Assembly: GCA_963971425.1 (NCBI GenBank) | Contig: OZ020518.1 | Location: 7,047,989 to 7,111,988, forward strand | Direction: 5' to 3' | Origin: Bryoerythrophyllum caledonicum | Lineage: Eukaryota; Streptophyta; Bryopsida; Pottiales; Pottiaceae | DNA length: 64,000 bases | Program-made: the position numbers and the translations under genes | Shown: piece by piece, positions 33,333 to 64,000 of the stretch | Layout: the number at the start of each line of letters is the position of its first letter | Numbering within the stretch: position 1 is the first letter of the stretch | The notes under the pieces: model-generated | Database searches by the model: none | The model's input: the letters and a program-made list of their open reading frames with translations, nothing else | What the model was told of the DNA's origin: nothing

Positions 33333-33377
33333 AATTTGTCTAAAACTATGATTTCTAAAAACAGATTGATATTTATT

Positions 33378-36113: not shown

Positions 36114-36290
36114 CCTGCATTCCAATGAGATACATATTAAATAACCCTGACAAATAAAAATGGGTAAACGCCTTGTAGGAATAGACATTTATGAAGAAGC
36201 ATAGGAAGAGGGTAATTGATCTCGAATCTAGGTAAGGTCTGGCGCTTGAAAAAAAACTATGATTCAAGTGAGCTGACATGGCAGACCAGG

Positions 36291-36853
36291 TAAATTTAGC
36301 TCGACTCGAGGTAAACTCATGCGGTATAAGATGACAAGTATATAATTTCATGCAATTAGCTATAATCCGAATATGAAATTATTTCACCCTTGACAAAGAC
36401 AACTAAGCCCAACCCGACCTAAATTTATGACTATCAGACTCATTGTCATTTTATCTCGAGTCGAGGTGAACAGAAATAGGACATCAGGTATGTTAGTTTA
36501 GCTCGAGTCGAGCTAAACTTTCCTTCAAAAGAAGGTAAGACAATTTAGCTCGACTCGAGCTAAACTGTCGATATATATTATTATCGACAGTTTAGCTCGA
36601 GTCGAGCTAAATTGTACTAGGAAAGAAGGTATGACAGTTTAGCTCGACTCGAGCTAAACTGTCAATACAATATTGTAAGACAGTTTAGCTCGAGTCGAGC
36701 TAAACTGTCTTACCATCTTTCCAAGGACAGTTTAGCTCGACTCGAGCTAAACTGTCGATAATAATATATATCGACAGTTTAGCTCAAGTCCAGCTAAACT
36801 GTCCTTGGAAAGATGGTAAGACAGTTTAGCTCGACTCGAGCTAAACTGTCCTT
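36291..36853. repeat. Palindrome array 1 (AGCTCGA-C/G-TCGAGCT family)
   Basis: At least nine near-perfect palindromes lie here. Most have arms GACAGTTTAGCTCGA and its reverse complement around a single C or G. The centre alternates G, C, G, C along the main row (36495-36853), so neighbouring units are inverted relative to each other. The ~17-bp spacers are also mirrored: the spacer between units at about 36568 and 36584 is the reverse complement of the one near 36755-36772, and the spacer near 36707-36724 is the reverse complement of the one near 36801-36818. The block can fold at several levels. No gene is present. Confidence 0.9.
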
Positions 36854-37455
36854 CCGTGATTTTCGGCGTCTTTTTAGGGATTCATATGGTATAACTCTTC
36901 AGCATATGAATCTGACTCTCTGTGTACTACAACCCAAATCTTCCCGTTAGTCGTCACGAAACTCGCAGTGATGCTTCAAAATCACAGTAGCAACTGGAAC
37001 CACCGCAATAACCGTACACATTATCACATCCTAATTGCTAGAGACTGTGCACAGAGAATGCAAGAAGTATACGTTGTGTACCTTTTGAAGAAGACAACTG
37101 GTGCGTTGTTGCCTCGCGCAAGCGCCCTACTCAACCGTGCGTAACCTGTAGATGTTACCCTCCTCAACCTCCGACAGTTCTTCTACCTCCAAGCCTCTCC
37201 ACAACAACCTTGCACAACAACCAAAGTGAGAAGGAAAGAAATGAAGAAAGTTTTCGAGGATCGGCGAGGTCACTCACGGACACACGACCGTTTCAGAATT
37301 GGCGGGAGGAAACTTCTGAATTGGCGGGGGGGCTTTTCTACAGCCCCTAAAAAGGTGCAAATTCGAAATCTTAGCGGGAAACAGAATCAACTATTTCCTG
37401 GCTAACTAAAATAAGGAAGAGTACATACCTCGAATATACTCGCACATGCGAGTTA
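36854..37455. other. Gene-free spacer
   Basis: No supported gene. ATTGGCGGG occurs twice near 37299-37330. The region could hold the promoter or leader of the DUF7869-type gene, but nothing decisive is visible. Confidence 0.4.
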
Positions 37456-37605
37456 CATACAAGGTTTTAGGGTAACGCTCAGGGTTTGGGTTAGGGTTAG
37501 GTTTAGGGTTTAGGGTTAGGGTTTTTAGGGTTTGGATTTAGGGTTTAGGGTTTGGTATTTCAGTTCAGGTTTTAGGGTTCAGGGTTTAGGGTCCTTGGTT
37601 TAGGT
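37456..37605. repeat. Degenerate plant telomere-like repeats (TTTAGGG)
   Basis: About 150 bp of interrupted TTTAGGG and TTAGGG units on the plus strand, with several GGTTTAGGGTTTAGG stretches. The Arabidopsis-type repeat supports a plant origin. Its position inside a window with genes on both sides makes it interstitial, not a chromosome end. Confidence 0.8.
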
Positions 37606-39627
37606 GTTTTCTTCTAATGTCATTTCATTTCAATATAATAATACTTTGAACATTCAAGATATTGACAATTCAACTAAGGTATAGGGAAATGTCGAGAAGA
37701 TATTGAGATGATTAGAAATAATTTGTATTACAATCCAAATAGGACTTATCTATTATGTTGAAATCAAAGACTTTATCAAACAAGTAGCATTTTTAAAAAA
37801 AACATATTTTATGTGCACGTGTATTTTTAGCAAAAAAGTATGTATTCAAACATGCTTTGGACATCATTTCTTTGGGGTTTTAAAAATGTGCATCATGTTA
37901 CTATTTTGTCATCAATTTAGAATGTGCATTCTTTGGTAAGAATCCCAAGTGTCTCCATGGTCTGGATTTGGAATTGAACTTGGTTACTAATATTTTGAAT
38001 TAAAATATCTTATATTTGAGTTCACATTGCATTATCATGAGTTTAGGGTGTGGCAGTCTAAGCATGACATGAAAGATGGAAGAATTCTTGACCATACACA
38101 ATTTATTTCATGTTTTGACGTGAAATTAAAGACTTTGTCATTTGTAAAACATAGAGAGTGGAACAATATTAAAAGATTTAAACAAGAAACGGAGAGACCT
38201 CCTCATGACAAAAAAAGGATAATCAAAATATAAAATATAACCAATACAAAGTGTATCACTTAGTGCATCAGGCATAATTTAATGTTCGTAATGTAAGTAA
38301 TTTTGAATTTATTTATACATGCAAAAAAGGAATAATTAGTTTTTGAGCACGTTCTAGTGGTCGCAAATTATATTTGAAATTCTCAAAATTTTGTAGAAGG
38401 ATGATAAAAGTCATGAGGCATAATTATTAGTAATTTATTTTCTCAATGAACGTCTTCAATAAAAGTTATGCGAGCCAAAAGAGAAACTTCTCGATTGCCG
38501 GCACGTCGAGCAACCTAAAAAACGTTTTGCTATGACTCAGTATGGAATGTGATATTTTGAATACATAGAAGTAATATTAGAACGAATGATATTGTGGAAA
38601 AACATGTTATTCTTCTAGTGAAAAATAAGATTACATCCCAATTCATACATTTTCACACATTGTCACATATTATTGATTTAGGGTACCAAGAATACTTAGA
38701 CTTCATATCCACTGAAGACTAGGGGATTATTATATTTTTTTGCTTTTTAATTTTACTATTGGAGATTTAGGTCCACATATTTTGAAAATCCTTTTAAAAT
38801 TCAAAAGATTACTATTTCACTTGTGAAATACTTAACCATAAAGAGAAGTACGGAGTTCAAAATGATTGTTTGAAGAAGTGGAAATACACATTGCACATAC
38901 ATCAGCTCAGTTTTTAGCAGAGGTGTGCACCATCACTACGTGCAATGAACTAAAAGGAAGGTGTGCATACACTTTAGCTCCACTGGTGCTAACGTGTGCC
39001 TCATCACTAGGTGCACTGAACTAAGAAGAAAATATGCACAGTTTAGCTCTACTAGCGCTAAATTGTGCACCATCACTAAATGGAGTAGATTAGAAAGCAA
39101 AAATGCACTATGTAGCTCCAGTATACAGAAGATGGCTTCTAGAGAAGTGGAAACTAAGTAGGAATCCATACAGTAATTGTAAAATGTACAATAAGTGTAG
39201 TGACAAAACTATACATCACCCAATGTCAACTACCACTCTAAATGTCAATCCTAGTAAATAGTGGAACATAAAGTTTTTTACTTGTGGACAATTAGTTTAG
39301 GAAACCATAATCATGGTTTGATTACATCTTGAGCATCATCGTAAGGAAGGGTTGAGTGCATGTAGAAAAGCAAGAATTTGCAAGAAAGAGCTTGGGAATA
39401 ATTGGACGTAGGTATGGAGCAAACGAAAAATATCAAAAATTGGACAAAGTAGAATGTAAAATATGGAGGGAAAATGAAACTGCAAGTAGAAGATTGGAAA
39501 TATAAGAACATTCTTCTGGAAACGAAAATGAGAAAAGAAAGGAATATTGGAAAAGGAAAAAACTTAAACATACAATAAATATAGAAATACAAGTAAAATA
39601 CTCATTAGATATCCATCACATATTATA
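37606..39627. repeat. AT-rich gene-free stretch with a variant palindrome cluster (38963-39130)
   Basis: No gene is seen. Around 38963-39130 three diverged units of the CACTTTAGCTC type recur about every 70 bp, each followed by GTGCACCATCACTA-like sequence. Examples are CTTTAGCTCCACTGGTGCTA and GTTTAGCTCTACTAGCGCTA. They look like older members of the palindrome family in which the inner arm has drifted. Confidence 0.55.
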
Positions 39628-39863
39628 ACACCATACTCATTTTATTGGGAGATTTCCAGGATTTTGAAAGTTATTAACGGTTTTTCCAATACATTTTTTT
39701 GGTGCACATTCAGCTCTACTCAAGCTGAATATGTACCCATATTGTAGATATTGGACAAATTGCATTGTGCAAATTTACTAAATATTTGCATATTTAGGTC
39801 ATTCTCAAGCTTCAAATATTATTTTGGGAGGCTCTCAATCTCCCAATATAATGAATATGGTGT
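39628..39863. mobile_element. 236-bp MITE with ACACCATA terminal inverted repeats
   Basis: The left end reads ACACCATACTCATTTTATTG. The right end is the reverse complement of ACACCATATTCATTATATTG. The arms match over about 27 bp with three differences. The interior is AT-rich and noncoding. A nearly identical terminal sequence is fused to the end of the hAT-like transposase frame at 63021-63049, which suggests that family. No clear target duplication. Confidence 0.5.
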
Positions 39864-40497
39864 TTTATGCATTCAATGTGCATTACATATTCAGTAAATA
39901 TTCATTAAATACTTATTGAAATTTGAATATTCAACTACACATTAATTTTACATTAGAAATTTATGCACTATTCATTATCTATTCATTAACAGTGCATTAA
40001 ATACTCTATAAATAATCATTAAATATACAAATATTAATTAAACTATCCTAAAATATACTTTTAAAACTTCAAACATTCATTAAGTAAAATTTAAATATTC
40101 TTTAATTGTGCATAGAAGTTTTAGATATACAAATATACATGAAGTATCCTATAAAAAATCATTACAAAGTCATTAGTTATTGGCTAATTATATGATTACA
40201 CATTAAATATTCATTTGGATAATATTAAAAAATATTTAAAAAATGCAAGAGATGGGAATGAGAATAGTTGTGGATAAGACGATAAGAAATTGAGGTTGAA
40301 GATGAGACGAAGAATAAATGCATGGCGTTCGGTAGGCATAACATATTGAGCTTATACAATTTATCAAGTATCAAAATTGTGTGCTAGGGAAGAGTTTTGA
40401 TAGAGGGCTATTACAAAATGAACTGTAGTAGGTGAACAAATGAGGGATAATATTCATGACAATGGTGGCTAAAACTAGTTGCCAACTTGTTGACTAA
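39864..40497. other. AT-rich gene-free stretch
   Basis: Short ATTCATTAAATA-like words recur. I see no gene. Confidence 0.45.
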
Positions 40498-41266
40498 TCA
40501 TACTACTAAAATCATAATCCACGCAGTGAACCACGTAGTCAACCGTGCGGTGAACTACATAAACAGTGCAGTCAAACGTGCAGTTAATTGCGTAGTCAAC
40601 CGTGCAGTGAACCATGTTACCTTTTTATTATTTATAGTTTGTATTATAAAAACTACATTATAATGGTTGGACATATGCGTTGCAAAGCAAGCGCCAATTG
40701 CTAGGAACGGTGCAGCCAACCGCACAGTGAATCATGTTACCTTTTCTTTAATATAGTTTGTAATATAAAACCACGCAATGAAGTTGGAGTTGTGATCTTG
40801 GAGGTTGGCATACAAAGTTGGAGTTGCAAAATTGCATATTCGAGTTGTGGAGATTGAAATTATAAGTTTTGAGGTGAGATTGCAAGTTTTGAGATTGTAA
40901 TTGCAAATTGAGTTTGTGGGTGTATAAAATTGAGATTGTAATTTCAAGTTGAGTTTGTGGGTGTGTAAAATTTGCATTTGTGTGTTGCAATTTGTGCTTA
41001 CCCAAAATAAATTTGAAACTCTTAATTACAAATTTGACGTTCATAACATTTTTGAAATTCCATGTTAAAATGCAAAAAAATCTAAAACGTAATTAATTTT
41101 TTTCTATTCTATTCTATTACATTATTAAAATTCATGCATAGGTTTCAAAGATATATTTATATTTTATGTAGATTGTTGTTACCTTTCTTTTTTTAATATT
41201 TTGTGATTTAAAAACTACATGAAAATGGTTGAACTAATGCGTTGCAACGCAAGCGCCAACTGCTAG
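40498..41266. mobile_element. Helitron-like non-autonomous element with two tandem 3' ends
   Basis: The right end has the palindrome GCGTTGCAACGC, then 12 nt, then CTAG followed by T, the classic Helitron 3' terminus (hairpin plus CTRR, inserted before T). A diverged copy of the same ~90-bp end, with a damaged hairpin, finishes with CTAG at 40701-40704, so two 3' ends are present in tandem. A candidate 5' end, A|TCATACTACTAAAATC, lies at 40498. Between them are short repeats such as GTGCAGTGAACC. There is no Rep/helicase gene. Confidence 0.45.
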
Positions 41267-41280
41267 TAGTGTACTAGAAA

Positions 41281-41670
41281 TAGAGAATCTCCACCGGGGC
41301 CGAGGGACCGGGATGCAAGAATAAACACGGTAAAGCCCACTCCGTGAGGCCTAGGCCGGTGTATCGGCCCACTGGAGTGGCGGCGCCGGTTCTTCTAAAC
41401 AATAAATTTATAGAAAGTACAAGGGAGACTAAAATTCCCCGGGAGCATGTGTTCAATCATGTAATTACACGAGGGAATTAAAAAAAATCAATAAAAACCC
41501 CAAAACAAATTAGCCTACTTTGGCGTAAGTGTTGGGCGCTGGCGTTCCCTCACAGTGGGCAATTCAGGGACGGTGCGGGGGGAAAAGGATAAACCCTCCT
41601 CCCTTCATCTCAAACTTGGGCACCTTCCCGCTGGCGTGGAAAATTCCCCGTCAGGGGTGGAGATGCTCTA
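41281..41670. mobile_element. 390-bp MITE with TAGAG(A/C)ATCTCCACC ends
   Basis: The left end TAGAGAATCTCCACC is matched by the reverse complement of the right end, TAGAGCATCTCCACC. GAGCATCTCCA-type ends are common in plant hAT- or Mutator-type MITEs. The interior is GC-richer than its surroundings and noncoding. Flanking ACTA occurs on both sides, but a full target duplication is not clear. Confidence 0.5.
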
Positions 41671-41730
41671 ACTACTGGATTTGTACCGTTAAAGTAAAAG
41701 CAAAATGAAGTGAAAAGTAAAGAAAAAATT

Positions 41731-41831
41731 CACACTTTAGCTCTATTAGAGCTAAAGTGTGCACCATCAGGAAATGCAGGAAACTAAAAAGAAAATATGC
41801 ACACTTTAGCTCCAATAGAGCTAAAGTGTGC
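41731..41831. repeat. Two variant palindromes (CACTTTAGCTC ... GAGCTAAAGTG)
   Basis: Units at 41731-41761 and 41799-41831 keep the outer arms GCACACTTTAGCTC / GAGCTAAAGTGTGC. The inner part is TATTA or CAATA instead of GAGTC. They share flanks with the 38.96-39.13 kb cluster (GCACCATCA, AAGAAAATATGCACA). Confidence 0.8.
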
Positions 41832-42589
41832 ACCGACATTTATTTTATAATTATACAATTGCAAGATGTGGTCTTAACATACTTAATGTCAGTTCGATTC
41901 TCAAAGTATATAATATCAAACTCATAAATAATCAAAACGTGAATTCAAAGTAATAGAATCTTAAAATCGTAGCTTTAAAACTCTCTTAAGTGTGCTTCAC
42001 CTAATAATTGGTGTAGGAGGAACTTATATACATCGATGGTAATGAATTTACTCCTTCTCTAATGCAGAAATTGAAATCCAGTCAAATGAAAGCCAGCTGA
42101 TCCACTGAAAGCATGACAGAAAACTAAACACTATAATCCTATTTGTAACAGTAAACACTATAATCGTTCACTTCCGTCCAATCGAAGTTTGTGTATTATT
42201 GAGAAAATGCCAATTTAGAAGTTTTAATTGAGATCATACGAATGAAATTGGAAATAATCACTTTTCTTTTGCTACCTGTTCGTTGCCCCAGAATATGCAA
42301 AATTGTAGTGTTAATGGCCAAGAAAAATTGTGTAGGAAATTTACGAGTACAGAAATACAACACGCGCGTAATATCTAGAACTTACATTAGAAAGATTAAA
42401 ATGGCTTCTTGAAACTCCGGGTATCAATAATGAAGGTGAATAATTTGTGGTGCATCCATCCATTTGTAATATCCGAGGGTCTCACCCGAATATCACGAAG
42501 GGTATCCCGAGGGTATGTTGGGAGCACCACACGGCCACAGGGTTTCGACCCTCACGGCTTTAGGTCCCCCCGAAGGTACCCTACAAAAT
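41832..42589. other. Gene-free spacer
   Basis: AT-rich, with GAGGGT/GGTACCC-type GC-richer sequence at 42470-42590 just before the putative leader exon of the next gene. No coding sequence seen. Confidence 0.4.
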
Positions 42590-43583
42590 CATGGCGCTCG
42601 CATTTTCTCTTCCTTTTCGTTGCTGTGAGTTTTGTGTGTGTCCGTCTACACGTTCTTGTTTTGTGAGGGTTGTGCGTTTATGCGTTGGTTCGTCGTGGTT
42701 TTGTGTGTGTTTGTCTAGGCGTTGTTGTTTTCTGAGGCGAGTTTGCGGTTTGTGTTGGTTTCGTAATGTTCAGGGTCTGCTAAGTTTGTGTATATTGTAC
42801 CGCTGCGTTTAGGCTTTCGTGCGTTTAGGCTTTCGTGCGTTTAGGCTTTCGTGGAGGTTAGGGTTTCCTGCAGATAGGATTTGTAGGACGTGTGATTCTT
42901 AATTGTGTGAGTTCGTGTCCACTGCAGCGCTGGAGTTTAGGGCTGTTTGTGTGAGATTGTGAGAATTTCTGTGAGTTTGTGACAGTTTGTGAGTTTATGT
43001 GAGTTTCTAGGAGTTTCTGTGAGTGTGTGTGAGTTTCTGCGAGTTTCTGTGAGCACGTACAGTCTGAAACGGCGGTGCTCGGAGGATTGACGTGAAGAAG
43101 GAACAAGACTTGCAGCTTTTTCAGTCGGATTTCTCAGTTTTAAAGGTAACTGCACTCATTCAGTCTTGCATTTCTTTTGATATTTGTGTAGTTTTGCTTT
43201 AGATATGATGTATTGAAACAGTATGATAGCATTGCTTTTGATGTATGTGTGAGAAGGTAGATGAGATTGTGTATTCAATGTGGTGGTTTGAATGTGGTAG
43301 TTTGAATGTGGTGGTTTGTGGTGGTTTGTGGTTATTTGTCGTGGTTTGTGCTAGTTTAAATGTGCTGGTTTGTGCTAGTTTAGATGTGCACATTGAATTC
43401 AATGTCGTGGTTTCAATTGCTAAATTCAATGTGCTGAATTCAATGTGTTAATTTCAATGTGCTCATTTCAAAGTGCTGATTTCATTGTGAATGATTTCAA
43501 TGTGTTGGTTTCCATGTGCTACTTTGTTTGATTTTGTGTGTGTGGGTTTGTTATTGTTGTTGCAAGACTTCTAGTTCCAGCAG
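42590..43583 (+). promoter_or_regulatory. Putative 5' leader of the ParB/methyltransferase-like gene (UTR exon plus intron)
   Basis: A pyrimidine- and GTG-rich stretch resembles a plant leader exon ending AAAG|GTAACT at 43145. The intron would run 43146-43583, ending TTCCAGCAG|, just before the short coding exon. The leader includes three perfect 16-bp tandem copies of GCGTTTAGGCTTTCGT (42805-42852) and GTGAGTTTCT-type repeats (42960-43060). The intron contains GTGGTTTGAATGTG repeats. This is inferred from splice signals and position; no promoter element is certain. Confidence 0.35.
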
Positions 43584-43730
43584 AATTTGTCTGGGACTAA
43601 GGTTCATAATCAATGGCTGAAAGGTAAAATCCATGCTCTCACCCAGGAGCCCTAAACCCTACGCCTTCAATATCATATAACGAAAGACGGATCTGCACAA
43701 ACTGCAATAAATAAGCTCTTCAATGAATAT

Positions 43731-44070
43731 AGTTTAGCTCGAGTCGAGCTAAACTGGGACATCGATATTGCACTACTGTCCACACTTTAGCTCGACTCGG
43801 GCTAAAGTGGGCCTCCACTGTACAAAATAGGCCACACTTTAGCTCGACTCGAGCTAAAGTGGGGCCACCACTGAGCAATATGGCCCACACTTTAGCTCGA
43901 GTCGAGCTAAAGTGAGATCCCCCGTGTGCTCTTGTGGCTGCATTTACCTCGACTCGAGATAAAGTGCGCTCTCCAGTGCTCTTTTGGCTACATTTAAACT
44001 CGACTCGAGGTAAACTATGGCCAATGAAGCACACTGGAGAGGGTACTTTAGCTCGACTCGAGCTAAAGTG
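43731..44070. repeat. Palindrome array 2 (AGCTCGA-C/G-TCGAGCT family)
   Basis: Seven units in about 340 bp, mostly with arms CACTTTAGCTCGA and its reverse complement. The first uses AGTTTAGCTCGA. Units near 43945 and 44000 have lost part of one arm (TTTACCTCGA, TTTAAACTCGA). Spacers contain GGCC and CCACTG words. The array lies inside the putative 12.3-kb first intron, directly left of the CACTA element. Confidence 0.9.
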
Positions 44071-44646
44071 TGGTCAATAGTGCACAATGGAGGCCCTCTA
44101 AAGCTTGAGTCGAACAGAAATGTTCAACTTAATACGTCTATGGTTGCGCCAAAGCCGGCTGCAGGAACAGTAATCATAATAACTACTCTCAAACTCTCGG
44201 TCTGAAAAATGTCATGGCCTTCCAGTAAAGCCAACACACACTATAAGAAACCCGTGTTTTTTGTGACAAGGCAACTAACGTGCAATTATGTTTTGTGCAG
44301 CATCCGGCATGTCAACGTTGACGTCCAAAAAAATCCGTTATAATTGACATGCGAAAAACATGCCAAAATCTCAAAAAACAGGCCCACGTTTTTTAAAACG
44401 TCACGAAAACTTGAGGGTTGAAGGTGTTAAAAATCTGCCATGTGGCTGCCACGTCGCGTCCACGTCATCGCCACATGGACGGGCAGTGCCACATCCCCAA
44501 CTTTTTCATCCGGGCCCTTGGTAATGTGGCCCATGATGTGGCGCATGACATGGCATACGATTGTGACTAGGCTTGCATACGTGGACCCACCATTTTATGA
44601 CGTGGCACCTTTAAAATATGACGTGTCACTTTTAAAAATATGACGT

Positions 44647-46250
44647 TGTCGTGGAGAGAGAATTTGCCTTGGGAAAACGTAGGGTTCTTGGCTGCTACCA
44701 ATTTCAGTAAAGGAAGAAGGGAGGTGTAATAAAGGCGTTCTTCATTGGTGATAAATTTGAAATAATACAAAGTAAGACTTTAATCTTCTCTAAAGGTAAA
44801 CTTCTTGACTCATCTTGACAAACCCTCGCAAGTGATTAAACAAGTAGTTTGAGTAAACTTGGGGTAGCAGAACCTTCTCTCATTCTATCAAGCTCTACCA
44901 CTTCATACTTAGCTTTATATGAGCATGCAATAGCTTCCTAGAAAGCTAATACAGTAAGGCTCATACGTACAAAATTTGAATATAAGAAGATCTATACAAA
45001 TGCTTCTATGAGGAATCAAAGTCACTGCTCTAATTTGCTCAAGGCAGCTGACTCCTTTCCACTCAATCTAGCATAACTCTCTCAAACCAACTCCAATCCA
45101 CCTACGTAATAGCTTTTTGAAAAGCTAACAACAAGATTAACAAGTGATAAAATTCTCAATCCTACTGACTCTATATGCAATGAATTATAGTTGCTCAAAG
45201 TCACTGCTTGAAACTTGTGGAATAAAACCCGCTCCTCCGAGAACACTCCTTCAATAGATTAAGTGCCACAAATCCATAACAACTCGGATTTGAGCTTGTG
45301 ATAGCTCATTGAAAAGCTAATTCAACCACCACTCTACACATAAAGATTCACTATCTCACTCTTTGTATACAAGTTTCTATATGGAATCAAAGTTACTGCT
45401 CTCAAAAATTCATGGCAGCAGTACCCTTGTTTATTCAAATCCACACCACAGCTTCTACATAACTCTGATTGGAGTGTGTGATAGCTTGTTGGAAAGCTAT
45501 TAACAAGTTCTACAACACTCTAAAAACTGACGTCAAAACTCACAAAACTCTACCTGTCACACTGGAAAACCCGAGCGTCTTTTTATACTACATGGAGGAG
45601 GCTTAGGCCGAGGGAGGAGGGAAGAAAAGTCAAGGGCCTAAATCAGCCCATGCTTCTCTAGCCTTCCTTTTGACTCACCCTTGGACACCAAAGTCTATTT
45701 ACCTCCAAATCTTATCCAAATCTTCCCACATAAGCCTAGCTTGACTTTTATTTCCTAACCTACAACTCTACTACAAGTTGGCACTATATTTCTCCCCCCT
45801 AAACTAACCCCCAAACTAAACATTTCTTATTTCTACTACAAACTATAATACCATAACACTCTGTTTAAGTTTTTTTTTATCTCAGAAGAGTTAGAGAATA
45901 GCTTAAATATCACTAGAGCCCACGTACTGCCATCGACCGCGGCTTAGTTCGGCTGGCTAAGCTTTTCGTTGCACCTCGCCGGTCCGGGTTCGATTCCTTG
46001 GCTTGTCAGAGCGGCTGGCGCTCGCGCGGTCAGGGGACTGCCGGAATCAGCAGCAAATCCAGCTGGTGGACGCTCCTAAGCCCTGAGCTAGTGACAAGAT
46101 GCAGTAAAGATCCTCTAAGATAAGCTTCTGGCCTGGTAGGGTAATTGAGGAAAAAACCATTTATTCTCCACAATTACCTTAACCAGCTAAATTCCCCATT
46201 TTTCTTCTCAATCTTATTTTTTATATCATGAACTATATTGCATCACGACA
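44647..46250 (-). repeat. 3' LTR of the Gypsy element
   Basis: Nearly identical to 52564-54167. The polypurine tract borders it at 46251. On the minus strand it starts TGTCGTGATG and ends TCCACGACA. Confidence 0.95.
45936..46010 (+). repeat. tRNA-like (SINE-head-like) unit in the LTR, copy 1
   Basis: GCTTAGTTCGGCTGGCTAAGC (about 45942-45962, A-box-like D arm) is followed 24 bp later by GGTCCGGGTTCGATTCC (45981-45997, B box). This is the internal pol III promoter layout of tRNAs and tRNA-derived SINEs. It is on the plus strand, opposite to the retrotransposon. Confidence 0.55.
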
Positions 46251-46261
46251 TCCACCCCCTC
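46251..46261 (-). promoter_or_regulatory. Polypurine tract of the Gypsy element
   Basis: The minus strand reads GAGGGGGTGGA immediately before the 3' LTR. This is the expected primer site for plus-strand DNA synthesis. Confidence 0.8.
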
Positions 46262-46292
46262 TAAACCTGCACATCGTCCGTGATGTGCCAAG

Positions 46293-52510: not shown

Positions 52511-52542
52511 CTTGTCTTGACCAAATAAGTAGCCCCAAGGCT

Positions 52543-52560
52543 CTCTCAGTGGAAGCACCA
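52543..52560 (-). promoter_or_regulatory. Candidate primer-binding site of the Gypsy element
   Basis: Three bases inside the 5' LTR end the minus strand reads TGGTGCTTCCACTGAGAG. It starts with TGG, complementary to a tRNA 3' CCA. The tRNA cannot be named from sequence alone. Confidence 0.5.
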
Positions 52561-52563
52561 AAT

Positions 52564-54167
52564 GTCGTGGAGAGAGAATTTGCCTTGGGAAAACGTAGGG
52601 TTCTTGGCTGCTACCAATTTCAGTAAAGGAAGAAGGGAGGTGTAATAAAGGCGTTCTTCATTGGTGATAAATTTGAAATAATACAAAGTAAGACTTTAAT
52701 CTTCTCTAAAGGTAAACTTCTTGACTCATCTTGACAAACCCTCGCAAGTGATTAAACAAGTAGTTTGAGTAAACTTGGGGTAGCAGAACCTTCTCTCATT
52801 CTATCAAGCTCTACCACTTCATACTTAGCTTTATATGAGCATGCAATAGCTTCCTAGAAAGCTAATACAGTAAGGCTCATACGTACAAAATTTGAATATA
52901 AGAAGATCTATACAAATGCTTCTATGAGGAATCAAAGTCACTGCTCTAATTTGCTCAAGGCAGCTGACTCCTTTCCACTCAATCTAGCATAACTCTCTCA
53001 AACCAACTCCAATCCACCTACGTAATAGCTTTTTGAAAAGCTAACAACAAGATTAACAAGTGATAAAATTCTCAATCCTACTGACTCTATATGCAATGAA
53101 TTATAGTTGCTCAAAGTCACTGCTTGAAACTTGTGGAATAAAACCCGCTCCTCCGAGAACACTCCTTCAATAGATTAAGTGCCACAAATCCATAACAACT
53201 CGGATTTGAGCTTGTGATAGCTCATTGAAAAGCTAATTCAACCACCACTCTACACATAAAGATTCACTATCTCACTCTTTGTATACAAGTTTCTATATGG
53301 AATCAAAGTTACTGCTCTCAAAAATTCATGGCAGCAGTACCCTTGTTTATTCAAATCCACACCACAGCTTCTACATAACTCTGATTGGAGTGTGTGATAG
53401 CTTGTTGGAAAGCTATTAACAAGTTCTACAACACTCTAAAAACTGACGTCAAAACTCACAAAACTCTACCTGTCACACTGGAAAACCCGAGCGTCTTTTT
53501 ATACTACATGGAGGAGGCTTAGGCCGAGGGAGGAGGGAAGAAAAGTCAAGGGCCTAAATCAGCCCATGCTTCTCTAGCCTTCCTTTTGACTCACCCTTGG
53601 ACACCAAAGTCTATTTACCTCCAAATCTTATCCAAATCTTCCCACATAAGCCTAGCTTGACTTTTATTTCCTAACCTACAACTCTACTACAAGTTGGCAC
53701 TATATTTCTCCCCCCTAAACTAACCCCCAAACTAAACATTTCTTATTTCTACTACAAACTATAATACCATAACACTCTGTTTAAGTTTTTTTTTTTTCTC
53801 AGAAGAGTTAGAGAATAGCTTAAATATCACTAGAGCCCACGTACTGCCATCGACCGCGGCTTAGTTCGGCTGGCTAAGCTTTTCGTTGCACCTCGCCGGT
53901 CCGGGTTCGATTCCTTGGCTTGTCAGAGCGGCTGGCGCTCGCGCGGTCAGGGGACTGCCGGAATCAGCAGCAAATCCAGCTGGTGGACGCTCCTAAGCCC
54001 TGAGCTAGTGACAAGATGCAGTAAAGATCCTCTAAGATAAGCTTCTGGCCTGGTAGGGTAATTGAGGAAAAAACCATTTATTCTCCACAATTACCTTAAC
54101 CAGCTAAATTCCCCATTTTTCTTCTCAATCTTATTTTTTATATCATGAACTATATTGCATCACGACA
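52564..54167 (-). repeat. 5' LTR of the Gypsy element
   Basis: Nearly identical to 44647-46250. One clear difference is a T-run near 53787 that reads 12 T here and 9 T plus AT in the other LTR. The promoter should lie within it, firing on the minus strand. Confidence 0.95.
53853..53927 (+). repeat. tRNA-like (SINE-head-like) unit in the LTR, copy 2
   Basis: The same A-box-like and B-box sequences as at 45936-46010, in the matching LTR position. It was copied with the LTR. Confidence 0.55.
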
Positions 54168-55271
54168 ACGTGGCATGTCCAATCAGCATAGTTTAATGCA
54201 ATAATTAATTGTGGATAGTGTAAATTGGGACGTCATTACTAACACGGTATGTTTTCTGTGACGTTCGTTATGACGTTTTCTGTGACGTTCGTTGAGATGG
54301 AGGTCACCAAAAACAAGCACCACGTCAGCAAAAGCAAGTGCCATGTCACCAAAAAGAAGCGCCATGTCACCAAAAAGAAGCGCCATGTCATCAAAAAGTA
54401 CCATATCACTTTAAGTTTCAAGGGTAATTCAAATTCATCCAAATAGATGGATGAAAGTGAATCACTCTTGATTCAAGTGTGATGAGATAGGAGAGAAGGC
54501 CTTACATATATATACAATGGGATGCACAAGTGGTGACAATCCATATGGGATTATTGGATTTGTCATGGTGTTAGCCTCGTGTTAGCATAAACATTAAAAT
54601 GTCACAGTAGACGTCCATCCAGACGTCTGTTCCAACATCTTCTTTGCCTACGTGGCAGCTGATTTCAACCTTGCCTACGTGGCACAAACATTTTAAAAAG
54701 AATCCAATTTCTACCTTGCCTACGTGGCTCAAACATGTTTTTTGTGATGTCAGTAAGGACATCCACGTTTTTTGTGACGTCAGTAACGACATCCACGTTT
54801 TTATTTTTGTAGGGGTCAGCCCATCTCCATTGTGTTTTAACCGTTGAGCAGTGTTTTACGGGAGGTTGCAGTAACAATCTCAAAGTTACTCACAGTGAAG
54901 CTAAACCCCCCTGCCGACGTGGCATTGTCACCTTTCTGAGGACGTTGTCTAAAACATGACTATGTTCACTAGGACGTCCCACAAAACAAATACGTTTATG
55001 CTAACATCTCTGCGTTTTTCCGCCAATTTTTTCATGTTTGGTGCAACATCCACCAGAATTTGAGAGCCCAAGGCTCGGCCCGTTCGCAAAAACATGTTTT
55101 GAAAAACACACTTGATCACAGCTAACATCACAAAAATCACGGGTTTCTTATAGTGACACTTTACCTCGAATCGAGCTAAAGTGTATGACAATAAACTTAA
55201 ACAACTCAAACACAACAACACTCAAACTTTAAACATTCCAAAGGTATAGTAAACCAATGATATTGACGATC

Positions 55272-55433
55272 CAACTCATGTCCACTTCTCGTTATATTTT
55301 CACATGTGTGCAAGAGCTTCAGTCTCGCTTCAACCACTTGAGAACCTCAAAGAGTGAGGTTCGTGAGTGATTTAAGCGTGAACTGAAGCTCTTTCACAGT
55401 TCTGAGAGTTAAACGAGAAGTAGCCATGATTTG
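55272..55433. repeat. Long hairpin, copy 1 (~162 bp)
   Basis: The whole segment folds on itself. CAACTCATG...ACTTCTCGTT pairs with AACGAGAAGT...CATGATTTG. AGAGCTTCAGT...CGCTTCAACCACT pairs with AGTGATTTAAGCG...ACTGAAGCTCT. The tip GAACCTC-AAAGAGT-GAGGTTC closes it. There is no coding sequence. It lies 0.5 kb before the main coding exon, in the putative first intron. Confidence 0.8.
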
Positions 55434-55594
55434 AAAATAAATGTATAGGAAAGTCGTTTGAATGAATATTGTAAGTGTCAGAACTGTTCAGCTATGCATT
55501 CCATGCATAAGCACTTTAGCTCGAGTCGAGCTAAAGATGAAGGTTAAACTTGAATACAACATTGATACATTGGTGAAATTGCAGTCTCTTAACT

Positions 55595-55757
55595 CAACTC
55601 ACGTCTACTTTTCGTTCACCTCTCATGAATCGTGCAAGAGCTTCAGTCCCGCTTCAACCACTTGAGAACCTCAAAGAGTGAGGTTCGTGAGTGATTTAAG
55701 CGTGAACTGAAGCTCTTTCACAGTTCTGAGAGTTGAACGAGAAGTAGGCATGAGTTG
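55595..55757. repeat. Long hairpin, copy 2 (~163 bp)
   Basis: The same hairpin as 55272-55433 in direct orientation 323 bp downstream. The inner ~95 bp is almost unchanged and the outer arms are more diverged. Two tandem long hairpins like this resemble small-RNA precursors or a duplicated foldback MITE. Confidence 0.8.
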
Positions 55758-57403
55758 ATTGTAAGCGTCTAAGAGAACGGTCTAATTGACTAGATTTTGT
55801 TGCAGAGTATTATTAACATACTTGTATTTTGTTACACATTAGCTCGAGTCGAGCTAATGTGTGACCTCGCCGTCCTAATCGGATGATCATTAAAACAATC
55901 TAATATTTGTGCTCCGTTTCGTGTTTGTGCAGATCTGAGAGGGACATGATGGTGTCTCAGCTGCAGCACTTCTTCCAGCCAAAGCCTGTCGACATTGACA
56001 ATGACGATGGAGACGACAACAACCACTTAGATTGCTGGGAGCTCAAGGATCCTTCGATGACACTAAAGTGGACGCTGCTTTGGGCCCCCTACACAGAGAA
56101 TCTAGTGTTTGGTGAGACCTTCGCTGGTGATATCCATGAACCCCAGCACACCGACTTCAAGACCAAAATTATTGATGTAGTCCACGAAGATAACGATATA
56201 GTGAAGTTGTCGTGTGAGACAACCACTGAGTCTGTCGTTCCTTATATGTTCACTACTGTAGTGAACAATACTTCGTCTCCCTTCTGTATCTTCGACTTAG
56301 TCAGTTCTCTTAGGGGGTCACAGTTTGATGACATAGTGGCTCAGGTCGACCACAAAATCTCCCAAAAGAAATGGGAGACTAGTAGTGGTCAGCCGTTGAA
56401 AACGAAGGCTGTAGCGAACAAACTCCGCGTCATTCTTTCCAGAATGAGTACTTTTGCCGCTCTTGAGAAGGCGAAATTAATCGCGTCTAGGCGCCCAATA
56501 GAACTTTCGGTAGTTTCTGATGCCGTAACAGGTAGCCTGAATATAAGTCAAGCATTGGTACCGGTAAGAACTCCAGGTGCAAGAGCAAGTCGAAGCACCC
56601 TGCGCAACACACTGTCAGCGTCTCCCGTCAAGAAGCGCTCAGCTGCCAAGAAGCCGGAGACTTCTTCCAAGAAGAAGACGAAACTCGTTTCAGAGGAAGA
56701 GTTGGCCAATTTGATGGCCTCTGCACTGTTGGAACTCCCTTTGGCGCTCGGGTTCGGAGAGGTAACAGACTACACCAACGTCCAACAGATATATCAGAAA
56801 TTCTGGACGGAGTGTCAAAGCTGTTTCTTCCAAGGAGACCGAGAGATGAAGATCGAGCTTGATGTGATGAGGCTGCATAATGCACCGCCGGAGTGGACGA
56901 TCCGTGCATTCGAACCTTGGGGTATGGAGGAGTTGAAGCATTACTACCTCGAAATGCCGGACAAGACGCAGAAGCAGACTCTCTGCGTCATGCCCAAGCT
57001 CGATCATATGCCAACGAAGGTTGAGGAGCTCAGCGACTGCGACTTCTGTATCATCAACGGCCAGCACATCGTTGCTGCATCAAAGTCGATGATAAACGGT
57101 ACCGTGCCGGAGGTTATGAGAAGGCACTTCCGAACATGGCAGTGTTACATTGTCTGGACGGAGGACCCTGAGAAGCTGAGGAAGATTTCTGCGTATTATG
57201 ATCGCGTAAATCACTTGGTCCAATTCAAGCCGACGTGGACAACAAATATCCTTGGCTCTCGCGCGTTGTGGATCCAAGCTGGGAGACCGATGCCGAAGCA
57301 CTGCGCCGCAGGCATTCACGGGTCCCATAGATCAGGTCGGAAAACGGCAGTGGAGATTGCCAATGACAAGAAGTTTGAGGTAATTAATCTTAACCAAGGT
57401 CAT

Positions 57404-57524
57404 GCACTTTAGCTCGACTCGAGGTAACTTCTGTGCTTGTCCTTCTTAGTATAGTTCTGTATACAGATTCAAGCACTTAGAGTGTACACTCTCCGGTTGC
57501 AAGTTAGCTCGACTCGAGTTAACC
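57404..57524. repeat. Two palindromes in the intron after coding exon 2
   Basis: At 57404-57429 (CACTTTAGCTCGA with a partly changed right arm) and 57501-57524 (GTTAGCTCGA/TCGAGTTAAC). The first is 25 bp after the splice donor. Confidence 0.8.
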
Positions 57525-58985
57525 TGTATTTTTGGGTCCTGCTGGTTTGGTTTTTTCTCCCTCTATGGTTGTACGCTAAATCAACACTGCCAATGTTCTG
57601 CATAGCCTTTTCTAAACGCGGTTCGTGAGCGCTTCGCAATGATTGACGTCGCCAAAAGCCAGGCAGCGCTCAAGAAAGCCGGAAAGGCGAAGGGGCTCTC
57701 GATTACGAACGAGGTGAAGATTATCACCTCGTCCGATGAGACCTTCAAGCTCTGGTCGGATGTCATCTCTTCGGCGGCACAAGGCGACCTCATCAACGTG
57801 GATTCAACAACGTCGCCTTTGTCAAAGTTTAAGGACGCCAAGTCCTGGGTGCCTGAGAAAGATGGGGTATTGACGCGCGAGTTCTTTAAGTTTTTCGGCA
57901 ATATACCGAGGCTGATCACGCAACGCTGTGTAAGCATATTCTTAATCGATCAGGGCCATCGCGAAAACTACCTTATCCTAAGGTGGTTGTAAAGCAGCCG
58001 CAATCAGTGCTGGAGGATTGCTACAACGCTCGGGACTGGGTCGATCGAAGGAAGAGGAAGGAGGTCGCTCGGATGGAGCTTCAATTGATCTGGTCGGAGC
58101 TCGCCTTCTTCAACAGCACTAGGGCGTACAGTCGTTCCAACTGGCGAAAGTTCAAGAAGGACTACAACGTCAGCAAGGCCTCAAAGCGTGCCCTCTTGGA
58201 TTGGGGCCCACCGGATTCGTACTACGCAAACTCAAGGCAGACGCAGTTTCGCAACTGCAAATGTGAAGATCTCTCTCCGTATGCGAAGGAGTTCTTCAGA
58301 GTCTTCCTCGATGTGCGGGCGCGGTTCGTTGCACCTGTGGGGGCCTTGCACTTTCGTCCATACAAGGCGGCAACCAACTCGCTCGGTGGATGGCCCTCGG
58401 ATTCGTGGCGTAACTTGGGCTGCAACGTGAAGCTCGGCATCATCGACTTCCATAATATCCCTGGGTTCGTAGGGAAGGCGATGTCGTCATTGGAGAAGCC
58501 CTTCTTCGACGAGTTCATGACAATGTTCGCATAAAAAGGGCAGCCTTCTCTCACCGGTCTTCCAGCGTGGCTCTTCATTTGCGGCGACGAGCAGTCACAC
58601 CTTCAAGTGACAGCGTTTGCTGAGGGGCCGTCGTTGTGCCATGCATACGACGTCCTGCAGTCGAAGTATCTTCCCTCCGACAACAAGCGCTTGGGGGGAT
58701 TCGCGCCGAAGACCAACAACGCTCTCGACCCGGTTCGCCTCCTCTTTCTCTTCAAGAAAGAGCTTACGCAGATTCCGGCCGTGAAGATCATCTACGCAGC
58801 TCCGGAGCATGTGTTGCACACCAAGCTACGCATGTACAACGAGCTGGCGTACTCCATGAACATGAACGAGCTGAGAATGGAGTTCTTCATCAAGGTTCTG
58901 GAGCTGTTCTGCAAGAAAGGGGATTCTACTGTCCAGCTGTTTTGCGGGACGAAATTACTGACTGCGAGTGTGGTGAGTATCCTTG

Positions 58986-59230
58986 CAGTTTAGCTCGACT
59001 CGAGCTAAACTGTTGATCCCCTCTCTGACTGTGAGTGTATTGTTTCAGAGAGGTCGTCTCTCATGCTTTTGTAGCGTGGCACTTTAGCTCGAGTCGAGCT
59101 AAAGTGTCGGCTTATACTTATATGGTTTTCTAGCAGTCGTCAATCACGTCATATTCTTCCAAGTTTTAATGGCTGCGTTTTCATATCAGTGTTCTTTTGT
59201 GCTCACTTTAGCTCAAATTGATCTAAAGTG
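58986..59230. repeat. Three palindromes in the 285-bp intron before coding exon 5
   Basis: At 58986-59012 (CAGTTTAGCTCGA and exact reverse complement around C), 59080-59106 (CACTTTAGCTCGA, exact, around G) and 59204-59230 (diverged CACTTTAGCTCAA). The first begins 14 bp after the donor and the last ends 28 bp before the acceptor, so together they span the intron. Confidence 0.85.
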
Positions 59231-60320
59231 TAACTTGTTTAATCCATTGGTGTGCAGATGTTGGATCTGGAGGCATTCTGCATATCCCACGACACCGATG
59301 AGCAGGACCTGGACGACGCCCAGGATGTAGCGTTGACGTTGGATCGGGCCGATTTCGTTATTGGTTCATATCACATCAGCGCGGAGATATTCCCCGAGCT
59401 TGGAGAGGCTGTTGCCAAGGGGAAGGGGAAAGTGATTATCGATCTCGTCGATGAGGAGGAGGAGGAGGATGTGGTCCCGAGCCCCATTGGTGTGTGCCCG
59501 AGCACCAGTACGGTTACACCTGATGCCGATTCACATGATGACTTCGATACCAACACTCCAGCGGAGCTTCATAGTGGCTCTCAGTCTGAAGCGGGAGAGA
59601 CAATGGGTACCTCGCGGCAGCGGCTCGATTTCGTGGAGTTGGAATCGCTTGATATCTCCGAGAGGCCTCATTCAGCTCCGACCTTGGGTGGGTCATCCGC
59701 TCGCCCCGCAGCCAAGAAGAGGAAAGTTGCCAACGCGACCGGCCGCTCACCGTTGGCAACGGCGAGCAGTGCTCAGGATGACATCAGGTTTATCGCCCTC
59801 GAGAAGAAGCTCGAAGAGGAGGCCACGCGGATGAGGTTGATGGAGCAGCGGCTGGCGGAGCGTGACGAGGAGCTCAGGGATATGCAGCGGAGGCGTGACG
59901 AGGAGATGAAGAGGGACCAGGACCAGAGGCATAACGACATGATGCTCATGATGCAGAGATTCATGACGGCTACTATGCCTCCTGTCGCCACGACACAAAC
60001 CGTAGTGAATTCTATGATCCCTCAGCCTCCAATCTCAGGTGACGATGAGACTAAGAGTCTGCCTCGCGATTCGCTTGTGCCGTCGCCGGCGGGTTCCTCC
60101 CCCGTCTCCATGGGGGCTCAATCGCTGCCTGATCCCCCGTCCCCGCCGACCCGCCCCTCTTCCTCCCCGAAGTCGCCCGCTCGGGACGATTCTGTCGTTG
60201 ATGTCCCCAGCTCATCGTCAGGTTAGTGTAACGTAGTTGCGAATGTATAGAGGCAGAACATTTTGTAAATGTCCAATTTTGTACTCCAGTATTTTTGTTA
60301 ATATTACAGTGCTCAGTGAT

Positions 60321-60346
60321 CACTTTAGCTTGACTCGAGCTAAACT
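60321..60346. repeat. Palindrome in the intron before the last coding exon
   Basis: CACTTTAGCTTGA / TCGAGCTAAACTG: the two arms mix the CACTTTAG and CAGTTTAG outer types, so the outermost bases no longer pair. Confidence 0.7.
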
Positions 60347-60844
60347 GCTTGACCTCTGACGACTCTGACATTGTATCAGTGTCCAATGTGCACATGAGCT
60401 GATGGGTTGAAGTTGTTGAATTTTTTCAGATCTTAGTTTTGGTGATGACGCGATTGCTCAACCAGTCGTAGATGAGGTCGTCCAAACTGCAGTCCCAGTC
60501 GTAGAGGATGTCGTCCAATCTTCGGCCGTGCTCGTAGACCAGATCAATCGTGATTCTCCTGTCCAGGAGCCCGCTCTTCTTGTCCCGGAACCGTGCCCCC
60601 AAATGGTTCTCGAGCACTCGAGGGCCCTTGACACCGTGCAAGTTTTGTTGGAATCGATGGGGGTCCGAAACAAATTGCTCCAAGACGATGAAGTTCTCGA
60701 GGTGCTCTTCTAACACTATCCACACTCTGCGCTTCCCCATGTTGCTTCCCCCCCGTTTGCTCTCTTCGTTCTACATTATGTTGACTTCTCGTTGTAAATG
60801 AATCTTTAGTAATATTGTTCGTTCTCCTGGCGTTTCCGAACCAG

Positions 60845-61636
60845 GTCTGCGAGGCATCAATAAGTGGTGCTAGTAATTTAGAAGAAATACGTAGAGTCTA
60901 TTCAGATTCCGAGGGCAGATGGTTGAATGTTGTGCTGGACCAAAATGGGATTCTATGCACTTGTAAGCCATCGTGGCAGGCCAGGAGATCCAGGGACTCT
61001 ATCCCGTCCATTCACTCGGCCTCGTTGCCGGCCGAAGTAGGCCCTAAGCTTGTTCGGGTGCGCCCTGGTTGTGCTGAATTCGTTACGAAGTTGTCTAAGA
61101 TTGCCACCATCACGATCTGGAGTTCAATGATGGAATCTACAACACGTGAGATATGTCAATATCTTTTTCAGCATAGTTCTGCGTATCCTCTCAGGATCTT
61201 TGGTCAGGAGAGTTGCGATAGGGTTCCCGAGCGTAGAGTCGGTAACAGAACAATCTACATGAAGGAATTTGGCACTCAGAAGGACATCTTGAAGACGTTA
61301 TCGAACCATCTCTTTAATAGGTTGGGCCGTGAGTATACTCCGGCAAATACGCTTGTCATTGACGATAGCCCGATTAAACATGTCCTCAATTTGCCGGAGA
61401 ACGTCTTTCTTCTTCCGTCATGGTCGCACAACCATGATGGCGTGAGACATGATTCTGTACTGCTGGAGGAATTGCTACCATATCTCTCTGACCTTCATCA
61501 ATTTTCGGGTGGCCTAGCGCAGTACCGTGCTGAACATCCCTCGGGTCGGGAGATGTTCAATAATGATCAGAAGACGTGTGGTCAGTCTGCGAGTATTTGT
61601 AACGCAATTCAAGCCTATCAGAATCTTCGTTTCTAA
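60845..61636 (+). CDS. FCP1/NIF-family (HAD) phosphatase-like coding exon
   Basis: The exon follows a CCGAACCAG| acceptor and codes 263 residues to a TAA at 61636. Motifs run in family order: LNVVLDQNGILC (nucleophile Asp; the second Asp of DxDx(T/V) is Asn, as in many plant DxNGxL relatives), VRVRPGCAEFVTKLSKIATITIWSS, IYMKEFGTQKDIL and NTLVIDDSPIKHVLNLPEN (the DD motif), then LLEELLPYLSDL. FCP1/NIF enzymes remove phosphate from Ser/Thr, for example on the RNA polymerase II tail. There is no ATG before the domain, so an upstream exon is required. It may start in the spacer, or the domain may be spliced onto the preceding gene through a donor such as GAG|GTGCTC at 60699. The missing general-acid Asp leaves activity uncertain. 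Confidence 0.8.
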   Translation, partial: VCEASISGASNLEEIRRVYSDSEGRWLNVVLDQNGILCTCKPSWQARRSRDSIPSIHSASLPAEVGPKLVRVRPGCAEFVTKLSKIATITIWSSMMESTTREICQYLFQHSSAYPLRIFGQESCDRVPERRVGNRTIYMKEFGTQKDILKTLSNHLFNRLGREYTPANTLVIDDSPIKHVLNLPENVFLLPSWSHNHDGVRHDSVLLEELLPYLSDLHQFSGGLAQYRAEHPSGREMFNNDQKTCGQSASICNAIQAYQNLRF

Positions 61637-61665
61637 TGTGGTTGGAAACGCTTAGATCCTTAATA

Positions 61666-61692
61666 CACTTTAGGTCGAATGGAGCTAAAGTG
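61666..61692. repeat. Palindrome just after the phosphatase stop
   Basis: CACTTTAGGTCGAA / GGAGCTAAAGTG: the outer arms are kept and the centre is diverged. It lies 30 bp after the stop codon. Confidence 0.75.
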
Positions 61693-61903
61693 TTTCGTTT
61701 GACTGCAGCTCCATTTTGTAAATTTTGTTGGGCCGTGTTTTGTATATATTTTTTGATAATACAAATGGTGATGTTTCTCCACTGAATTTATTGTACGGAT
61801 TGGAGACCTACTGCTGGTGAAATGTCGTCCTTTTTTTAATGATTGGAATTTTTATCTATTGTTCTGAGGTATGTGAGTGTCACTTTTGTTGAAATTTCTA
61901 CAG

Positions 61904-62758
61904 GGCTGTGATTGTCGGGCGTCCGTGGATTCCTTGTTGGGCCCACATGAGTTCGCCCTTCCCCTTCGGAGTAAAGGGCTTTTGTTGCACTCTGCTGCAA
62001 CCGCGCAGTCAACCATGGATTATTCGACCATGGCAGTGGACGACGGAGTTGTTGAAAGCCCTATTGCGCGGGAGCCAATTCATGAAAGGAACAATTCACC
62101 TTCGCCACAGTGGCCTCGTTCAGTTCCGGGGTCTCCGCGCCTAAACCTGGATAATTGTATTCCGGCAAAGCGTATTCTCTATGACGGTTTAAGGGATGCC
62201 ACTCACCACCGCTCGCTCACGGTGCGTGTTATGCTGACCTCCAAGTTATTGCACTATTGAGTCGTTCTTGCCTAGAGAGTCTTGGTTTGTTGTTGAGGTA
62301 CCTTGCACTCTTGTAGTTTTGCTTCATTTGAGCTTGTTTTTGTTCATTGGATATTAAATGTCCTCTGTGAATTTCCCCTTCTGCATTTTAGCTCCATTTG
62401 AGCTAAAGTGCACTAGGATGAATCTTGATGATACAGTTTTTTTGTGTTGTCGTGTAGGTGTATTCGACCTAAAGTGTATTTGTTTGGATTGTTTGTGGCG
62501 CCTATTGTGCAGGAACCATCTGGTAAATGTCTTCGCCCCCGTATTCTCTCAAGAAATGCTGCTGGAATCAAATGCTCTCCTTCTGCTCCCACCCGTCGTC
62601 ACTCACTACCCAAATCAAACACGGACGAGGTGCGAAGGCGGGGTTTACAGCGTCTTCTTGAGAGTCCATTAATGCAAGAGAATGGCGCAACATGGACTCG
62701 GCAACGTCAGAGGGCTTTTCTGAAGACGCGTATAGAGGCTTATGGAGGGACTCCCTAG
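61904..62758 (+). CDS. Two exons of an unrecognised protein
   Basis: Exons 61904-62221 (after TTTCTACAG|, ending ACG|GTGCGT) and 62513-62758 (after ATTGTGCAG|, ending at TAG) join in phase to 187 residues. The first has no ATG until MDYSTMAVDD, 36 codons in, so there may be further upstream exons. The product is rich in Ser, Pro, Arg and Leu, with RRRGLQRLLESPLMQENGA and a basic end. No family is recognised. The intron holds a diverged palindrome at 62383-62411. Its position and the matching intron repeats tie it to the methyltransferase-like/phosphatase cluster, and it may be part of the same transcription unit. Confidence 0.45.
62383..62411. repeat. Diverged palindrome in the intron of the last cluster gene
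   Basis: GCATTTTAGCTC / GAGCTAAAGTGC with CATTT between the arms. It is the rightmost clear member of the family in the window. Confidence 0.7.
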
Positions 62759-62992
62759 ACTGTTTGATTAGTAATAGGGCGATTGTGTTTTGCGTCGAGG
62801 TAAATGAGTGTTGTGTGTGACTTTTTTTCATGGAGTTTTGAATAAAGCTTGGATTAATAGTATATGCTTCCTTTATCATTACCACTTTTTTGGACAATCA
62901 GCTATTTTGGTCCATCCATGGTAAAAAATACAGTATTCTTGATACATTGTCTTTATGCTTTGCACCTACAAATTTCTATATTTATTGATACT

Positions 62993-63826: not shown

Positions 63827-64000
63827 TCGTTGCGGAACAATATTTCCACAATTGGCAAATCGACTTCACACATAGGGAGGTAGGCTACGACAAATCAACC
63901 TCTCTGACTTGGCGCCGTATCCAAAGTGAGCGAACGCACGCTCACGTTTGTAGCTAAAAGTATAGTTACAGAATACACAACTTACTTTGCCCTCGTTGTC
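63827..64000. other. Window end, no gene called
   Basis: Sequence upstream of the hAT transposase. No further exon or element end is recognised. Confidence 0.4.

Follow-up and report, generated by a model that had tools for sequence, protein, structure and literature searches.

Palindromes in the Window

The window analyzed here is a stretch of 64,000 nucleotides from Bryoerythrophyllum caledonicum (contig OZ020518.1, positions 7,047,989 to 7,111,988). It contains, at 33437..63050, a left-truncated copy of a giant DNA transposon with terminal inverted repeats (TIRs), which we delimited by aligning it with other copies and which is interrupted by an insertion at 44239-55155. Scattered through this copy is a family of near-perfect palindromes. 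Among the sites that we examined, these palindromes are internal sites of one giant, multi-copy TIR transposon family. The window copy (W) and the copies A, B, E, and F make up the W-type stretches; E and F are additional copies, retrieved through an exon of the element coding for a NIF-type phosphatase.

With a unit defined as TTTAGCTC-N5-GAGCTAAA matched at no fewer than 13 of 16 positions, the window holds 33 units between 36295 and 62407 and none before 36 kb, against a mean of 0.35 in 20 resampled sequences. The pattern AGCTCGASTCGAGCT with up to three mismatches also gives 33 matches, every one within 36298-62404, whereas 100 shuffles give a mean of 0.66 and a maximum of 2. A previous sequence-only reading of the window had reported more than 25 palindromes in its right half and none before ~36.2 kb. 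Both observations are real, and the units are restricted to the right half because the transposon copy begins there.

The units are laid out as two arrays, two pairs with 69-bp spacing, and single units. Array 1 (36295..36845), upstream of a gene for a DUF7869 protein, has 10 palindromes spaced by 46-47 bp in its main run, and its centre bases alternate across the last eight units. One pair, at 38973..39062, has a core variant altered beside the centre and is found at the same place in A, B, E, and F; the other is at 41736..41825. Array 2 (43733..44119, 51-53-bp spacing) consists of seven palindromes and a decayed eighth in a candidate intron of a multi-exon gene. The same candidate intron contains three palindromes at 55160..55858 (55160, 55515, and 55838), alternating with a 162-bp fold-back repeat whose copies (55272-55433 and 55595-55758) are 90% identical and which is present too in A and B. 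Introns further downstream hold two palindromes at 57408..57523, three at 58989..59227 (58989, 59083, and 59207), and one at 60324..60344. One unit lies downstream of the NIF exon (61669..61689) and one between the coding-like stretches 62016-62221 and 62512-62758 (62387..62407). All eight units within 55933-62758 fall outside the coding stretches (P = 6e-6), whose borders were drawn from splice-like sequence and open frames rather than from transcripts. Within arrays, cores are 92-95% identical and inner spacers 57-59% (42-44% for random sequence), and dispersed units keep their cores despite flanks that are unrelated to one another. The five units that were folded with DNA parameters all give stable hairpins.

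One Transposon Family

In the 437-Mb genome there are 5,819 exact copies of the 15-bp core and none of its reversed control, so that the genome-wide count suggested by the sequence-only reading is far above chance. Outside this genome, a viral collection gave no match to the motif, and prokaryote genome contigs gave seven stretches with it, near what we estimate as chance for 18 fixed bases in 257 Gb. The surroundings of 50 distinct core sites were read, all of them on contig C1 and hence a non-random sample. All 50 are inside one DNA-transposon family, 44 in large elements (14 in A, 11 in C, 8 in B, 4 in D, 3 in L026, and 4 in L040 and L041 together) and 6 in miniature inverted-repeat transposable elements (MITEs). 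L040 and L041 are partly read copies, 82-94% identical to E.

The ends of the element are AACACCATATTC.../...GAATATGGTGTT, inverted repeats of ~29 bp, and AACACCATATTC... is found at both ends in B, E, F, and C. Of the elements holding listed sites, B, C, and the MITEs were read at either end, whereas A, D, L026, L040, and L041 were not; the TIR was seen at one end in A, D, and L026 and at neither in L040 and L041. Of the 11 members for which the two ends were read, nine are flanked by an exact 4-bp target site duplication (TSD): C, E, F, the MITE in the window, L027, L028, L029, L031, and L042, the last read by eye. Three W-type copies were read from end to end: B with 18,997 bp and 34 units, E with 19,605 bp and 31 units, and F with 19,137 bp and 33 units. 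Searches for TIR/TSD pairs inside the window were unusable: a 14-base TIR gave 10 weak pairs, six of them the palindromes themselves (two pairs in one shuffle), and an 11-base TIR gave one pair, as did the shuffle.

In the window, the right TIR lies at 63022..63050. Copies A, B, E, and the partial L026 align up to position 63050, and the alignment of F ends two bases later, at 63052. On the left, B, E, and F extend beyond 33437 to a left TIR that is not found in the window, where the copy lacks the left ~1.1 kb that E has; a LINE-like element (long interspersed nuclear element, named by eye from its frames) begins near 33437, at the truncated side. The later insertion at 44239..55155 is a CACTA-like element by eye, with CACTATAAGAAACCCGTG ends and the TSD ACA, and nested in it, at 44647-54167, is an element classed by eye as gypsy-like, with 1,605-bp long terminal repeats that are 99.9% identical. 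The insertion adjoins the outer arm of unit 55160, contains no unit at the threshold of at least 13/16, and is absent from E and F, whose alignments halt at 44239 and resume at 55592 and 55156, respectively.

The MITE at 39627..39864 belongs to the same TIR family, has the TSD TTAT, and is itself inside the giant element, with one palindrome at 39709-39729. It is present in E and F and missing from A and B. The MITEs, short TIR derivatives with TSDs, are 163 or 237-238 bp long, and the six of the sample, which were sampled by the unit, have one unit each.

Conservation across Copies and Subfamilies

From one copy to the next among W, E, F, A, and B, dispersed units are found at matching places, whether in introns, between genes, or in the left-terminal region; the exceptions are a few that went with deletions (e.g., 55515 in E) and the unit of the MITE, absent from A and B. 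The arrangement is paralleled in the divergent element C: units lie at its ends, one array is upstream of DUF7869, another occupies an intron, and further units accompany later exons. Three units of C come where a read-through frame ends, probably within an intron. When the window is compared with A or B, the cores of 16 dispersed units diverge less than their flanks (6.6% and 17.5%, P = 2e-7, for A; 7.5% and 17.1%, P = 4e-6, for B). The difference is not significant in comparisons with E (3.4% and 3.2%) or F (3.0% and 3.6%). Cores are thus slower between but not within subfamilies, a pattern expected of sites needed by the transposon rather than by the host. Purifying selection while the element transposes, with unconstrained decay once a copy has inserted, would give such a result.

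The subfamilies also differ in the sequence of the site. Arm position 8, in a scan scored against the W-type sequence, is C-G in 31 of 45 units of stretches C and D and T-A in 148 of 161 units of W, A, B, E, and F. In the second subfamily the outer arms are different in both halves: outer half-sites are ACA[C/G] in the W-type and TGCA[T/C]A in the C-type. Exact AGCTC-N5-GAGCT units, a selection that fixes the inner positions, are palindromic in 89/89 W-type and 32/33 C-type cases.

Symmetry of the Palindromes

Arms are paired in 84.1% of cells, against 75.6% in shuffles, none of 500 being as high, although the rows are related. In 17 representatives, compensated cells exceed expectation at arm positions 1-10 (5 against 1.0, P = 0.001) and 11-15 (12 against 4.3, 0/5,000 shuffles). 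Among the 11 dispersed units alone, the excess is significant at positions 1-10 (3 against 0.62, P = 0.017) and not at 11-15 (4 against 2.4, P = 0.17). Positions 16-20 show no excess in either set. The arms covary, in the dispersed units alone significantly at positions 1-10 only, and the proposal that pairing is maintained beyond sequence as such is supported. Genome-wide, units with matched arms number 3,562 (TTT..AAA, T-type) and 641 (TTC..GAA, C-type) and mixed units 380, against 3,072, 151, and 1,361 expected if arms were independent, an imbalance to which subfamily descent contributes.

The changes themselves point to fold-back copying. At 55834-55862 both arms carry matched changes (CATTAG/CTAATG), just as had been described; in this unit, 55838, the changes are in the right arm only in A and B, in both arms in W and F, and in both with one extra left-arm change in E. 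This agrees with the earlier suggestion that one arm is copied onto the other. The central base differs in 32 of 155 between-copy comparisons, 26 of them complement swaps (arms, 39 of 158 differences); counted by eye as events, there are six centre changes, of which five are complement swaps. Among the 26-bp spacers of array 1 are two pairs in which one member is the exact reverse complement of the other (26/26), and the final spacers of array 2 resemble earlier ones more closely in inverted orientation. All three kinds of change, in the centre, the arms, and the spacers, point the same way. Matched stem changes and loop inversion are described as marks of template switching at hairpins (PMC8794818), and they resemble what is found here in the arms and the centre base; the hairpins there are in RNA genes and here in a transposon.

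Genes of the Element and Its Surroundings

The DUF7869 gene (33378..36113, minus strand; Pfam PF25273, E = 1.9e-40 on the open reading frame 33378-34991) codes for a putative transposase. Its start near 36113 was read by eye from the sequence, its C-terminal side is cut by the LINE-like element, and it has one in-frame stop in its 5′ part. DUF7869 looks massively amplified in the genome: there are 3,608 candidates, and all of the 150 that were scored pass the cut-off, many of them having open frames of about 1,075 aa. We did not find DUF7869 in the open-licence literature.

The genes to the right, at least two in number, are on the plus strand. A multi-exon gene, which has no confident family, begins with a candidate first coding exon (MAE-, 43613..43623, read from sequence and in frame with 55933), followed by a coding exon (55933..57379; ratio of nonsynonymous to synonymous substitution rates, dN/dS, 0.16 between subfamilies), coding stretches at 57618..58972 (0.16-0.24 in the parts tested) that in the window copy contain a frame break and an in-frame stop, an exon that is charged and coiled-coil-like by eye (59257..60222; 0.32-0.47), and a last coding exon at 60430..60712. 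ParB-like (from the motif NGQH) and methyltransferase-like readings of the exon at 55.9 kb and of the one after it, respectively, were dropped, as Pfam, NCBIfam, PHROGs, and PDB gave no support. When relatives of two proteins were sought in the viral collection, one gave two pattern matches, neither confirmed, and the other none. The exon of the NIF-type phosphatase gene (60843..61636; Pfam PF03031, E = 3.9e-15; dN/dS 0.18-0.22 between subfamilies) has 603 candidates in the genome; the 40 scored are the window itself and 39 other places at 96-97% identity, and therefore the family looks recently spread. Two further NIF-like open frames, so named by eye, are found just beyond the end of element C (L023, ~5646-7446).

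The element genes are under purifying selection between subfamilies: dN/dS over seven coding stretches is 0.14-0.47, and between E and F it is 0.32-0.82. Several copies have scattered stops in their genes. Synonymous divergence between subfamilies is 0.10-0.17 in DUF7869 and 0.26-0.57 in the genes to the right, a contrast that suggests mosaic elements.

Other features of the window include a degenerate TTTAGGG-like tract within the transposon copy (37481-37592). A DUF659 transposase-like frame (62993-63865, minus strand) has a Pfam match over residues 143-272 that by our own arithmetic ends at ~63050, where the transposon has its right end, so that the giant element may have inserted into this gene. 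Strong GC and AT skew at 26000-34000 extends over a LINE-like element on the minus strand (named by eye), one frame of which contains GDIETNPGP, resembling a 2A peptide. A separate palindrome array at 24622-25375, outside the family described here, is built of ACTTAAGT, which occurs 15 times in the window; its copies mostly follow one another at 20 or 23 bp, and the spacers vary. A U4 spliceosomal RNA gene (2028-2168, minus strand, 107 bits) is the sole match of Rfam at gathering thresholds over the window.

Role of the Palindromes

Our preferred reading, which we hold to be probable though well short of secure, is that the palindromes are conserved internal sites of the giant TIR element, bound by a dimeric protein that the element would encode, with template switching maintaining their symmetry. 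A site for a dimeric protein is the best functional reading of the palindromes, albeit a putative one. The protein would act in transposition or in the element's own regulation, and only copies with good sites would leave descendants. Symmetry would be renewed at the level of DNA: at the hairpin, one arm would be rewritten from the other through template switching or fold-back synthesis; the same process would turn the central base over, and arrays would grow by inverted duplication of a palindrome with its spacer. The presence of a unit in MITEs, which were found by the unit, fits the protein-site reading. A bolder version, rather doubtful in our view, is that some thirty self-correcting sites in introns and gaps let the element's protein gather the whole element, as a partition- or synapsis-like array and not at end sites only; in each subfamily, site and reader would have evolved together, and hairpin copying would be a built-in repair.

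Several observations weigh against the protein-site reading. Non-coding DNA away from the units is itself fairly slow (10% against A and B), so that the core contrast is a contrast with fast flanks (17-19%), which may be hot spots; with the arrays counted in, the cores as a whole diverge by 8.1-8.4%. The core contains two CpG, and their decay after insertion could mask what constraint is left among close copies. The genome-wide counts of matched and mixed arms include related copies, and gene conversion alone could produce concerted change within a subfamily. B and one MITE (L030) lack an exact TSD, and MITEs gathered through the palindrome leave palindrome-free ones out of the sample. One 3-kb stretch beside another DUF7869 gene has no such array, so that DUF7869 genes may not all be accompanied by these sites. 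Single-sequence folds of two window pieces are too poor for use (predicted local distance difference test, pLDDT, 37-38).

The alternatives differ in what they make of the same units. That these are selfish hairpin repeats with no binding role, which only multiply and become uniform inside the element through gene conversion and template switching and are carried along as passengers, is unlikely but deserves to be taken seriously, as it accounts for the inverted spacers, centre swaps, and matched arm changes, for the homogeneity within a subfamily, and for flanks that evolve faster than the remaining non-coding DNA. Yet dispersed units stay at matching places across copies without turnover, their cores are kept although the flanks are mutually unrelated, and the six small MITEs, sampled by the unit as they were, also hold one. 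Mobility of the hairpin in its own right, with preferential insertion into this transposon, would explain sharp, short, dispersed units in unrelated flanks, and the sequence-only reading had raised it. We give it the least credence: the borders of 13 units have no direct repeats or target duplication at any tested offset, all 50 listed sites are in one family (some transposon copies having been read only in part), and the positions of most dispersed units are shared by A, B, E, and F, a few units being lost by deletion.

The same reading had also considered RNA hairpins in introns. Hairpins acting in element transcripts, through splicing, small-RNA silencing, or 3′ ends, would suit the stable folds and the exclusion of all eight units of 55933-62758 from coding stretches, several being intronic; as a general role this is very unlikely, since arrays also lie upstream of genes, units occur between genes and in short MITEs, and the 24 unpaired cells (5 GT, 4 AC, 15 other) show no G-T excess. 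Host regulatory or chromatin sites are a still more remote prospect: their high copy number in the genome is in line with such a role, but cores are not less diverged among copies of one subfamily and every listed site is within the transposon family. Finally, the sequence-only reading had named as a refuting outcome that all units lie in one ordinary transposon family as its terminal repeats. This is half borne out: the sites read are in a single family, but the element is giant and multi-gene and most units are internal.

Comparison with Known Systems

CACTA/EnSpm elements have subterminal repeats bound by TNPA, and TIR transposons with repeated protein sites are thus already known. As there, the units here are presumed protein sites present in many short copies and both orientations in a TIR DNA transposon. 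Here, however, they are long near-perfect palindromes over the whole element, introns included. CACTA/EnSpm elements are defined by a TIR starting with CACTA, a 3-bp TSD, and a TNP2-type transposase. The giant element has the TIR AACACC and a 4-bp TSD, and its seven scanned open reading frames have no TNP2-type Pfam match, with DUF7869 instead; we therefore do not place it among them. Foldback elements have long terminal inverted repeats built of subrepeats, and the giant element is not one of these either, its inverted ends being ~29 bp and its arrays internal. MITEs, as short TIR derivatives with TSDs, do occur here, but the palindrome is a site within the MITE rather than the MITE itself.

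Dispersed palindromes are likewise already known from organelles (PMC2670323, PMC2800124). The short palindromic repeats of Volvox carteri organelles form hairpins mostly in intergenic DNA and non-coding parts of introns, in both orientations; they are organellar, with nuclear copies that the authors suggest to be inert (PMC2670323), whereas here the palindromes are built into a nuclear TIR transposon. The repetitive hairpin-forming elements of sponge mitochondria are similar in that hairpin families are spread through intergenic DNA, but they are mitochondrial, and the part of the account used here mentions no TIR transposon (PMC2800124). In the open-licence literature we did not find a giant TIR element with some thirty near-perfect palindromes through its introns and gaps. 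What appeared to be a free-living palindrome family is explained as the internal architecture of a large and abundant transposon, a natural system in which the symmetry, number, and subfamily-specific sequence of sites can be tested against the element's protein. The explanation further suggests hairpin-based arm copying and centre inversion inside a transposon, where the one-armed state of a unit is still visible in sister copies.

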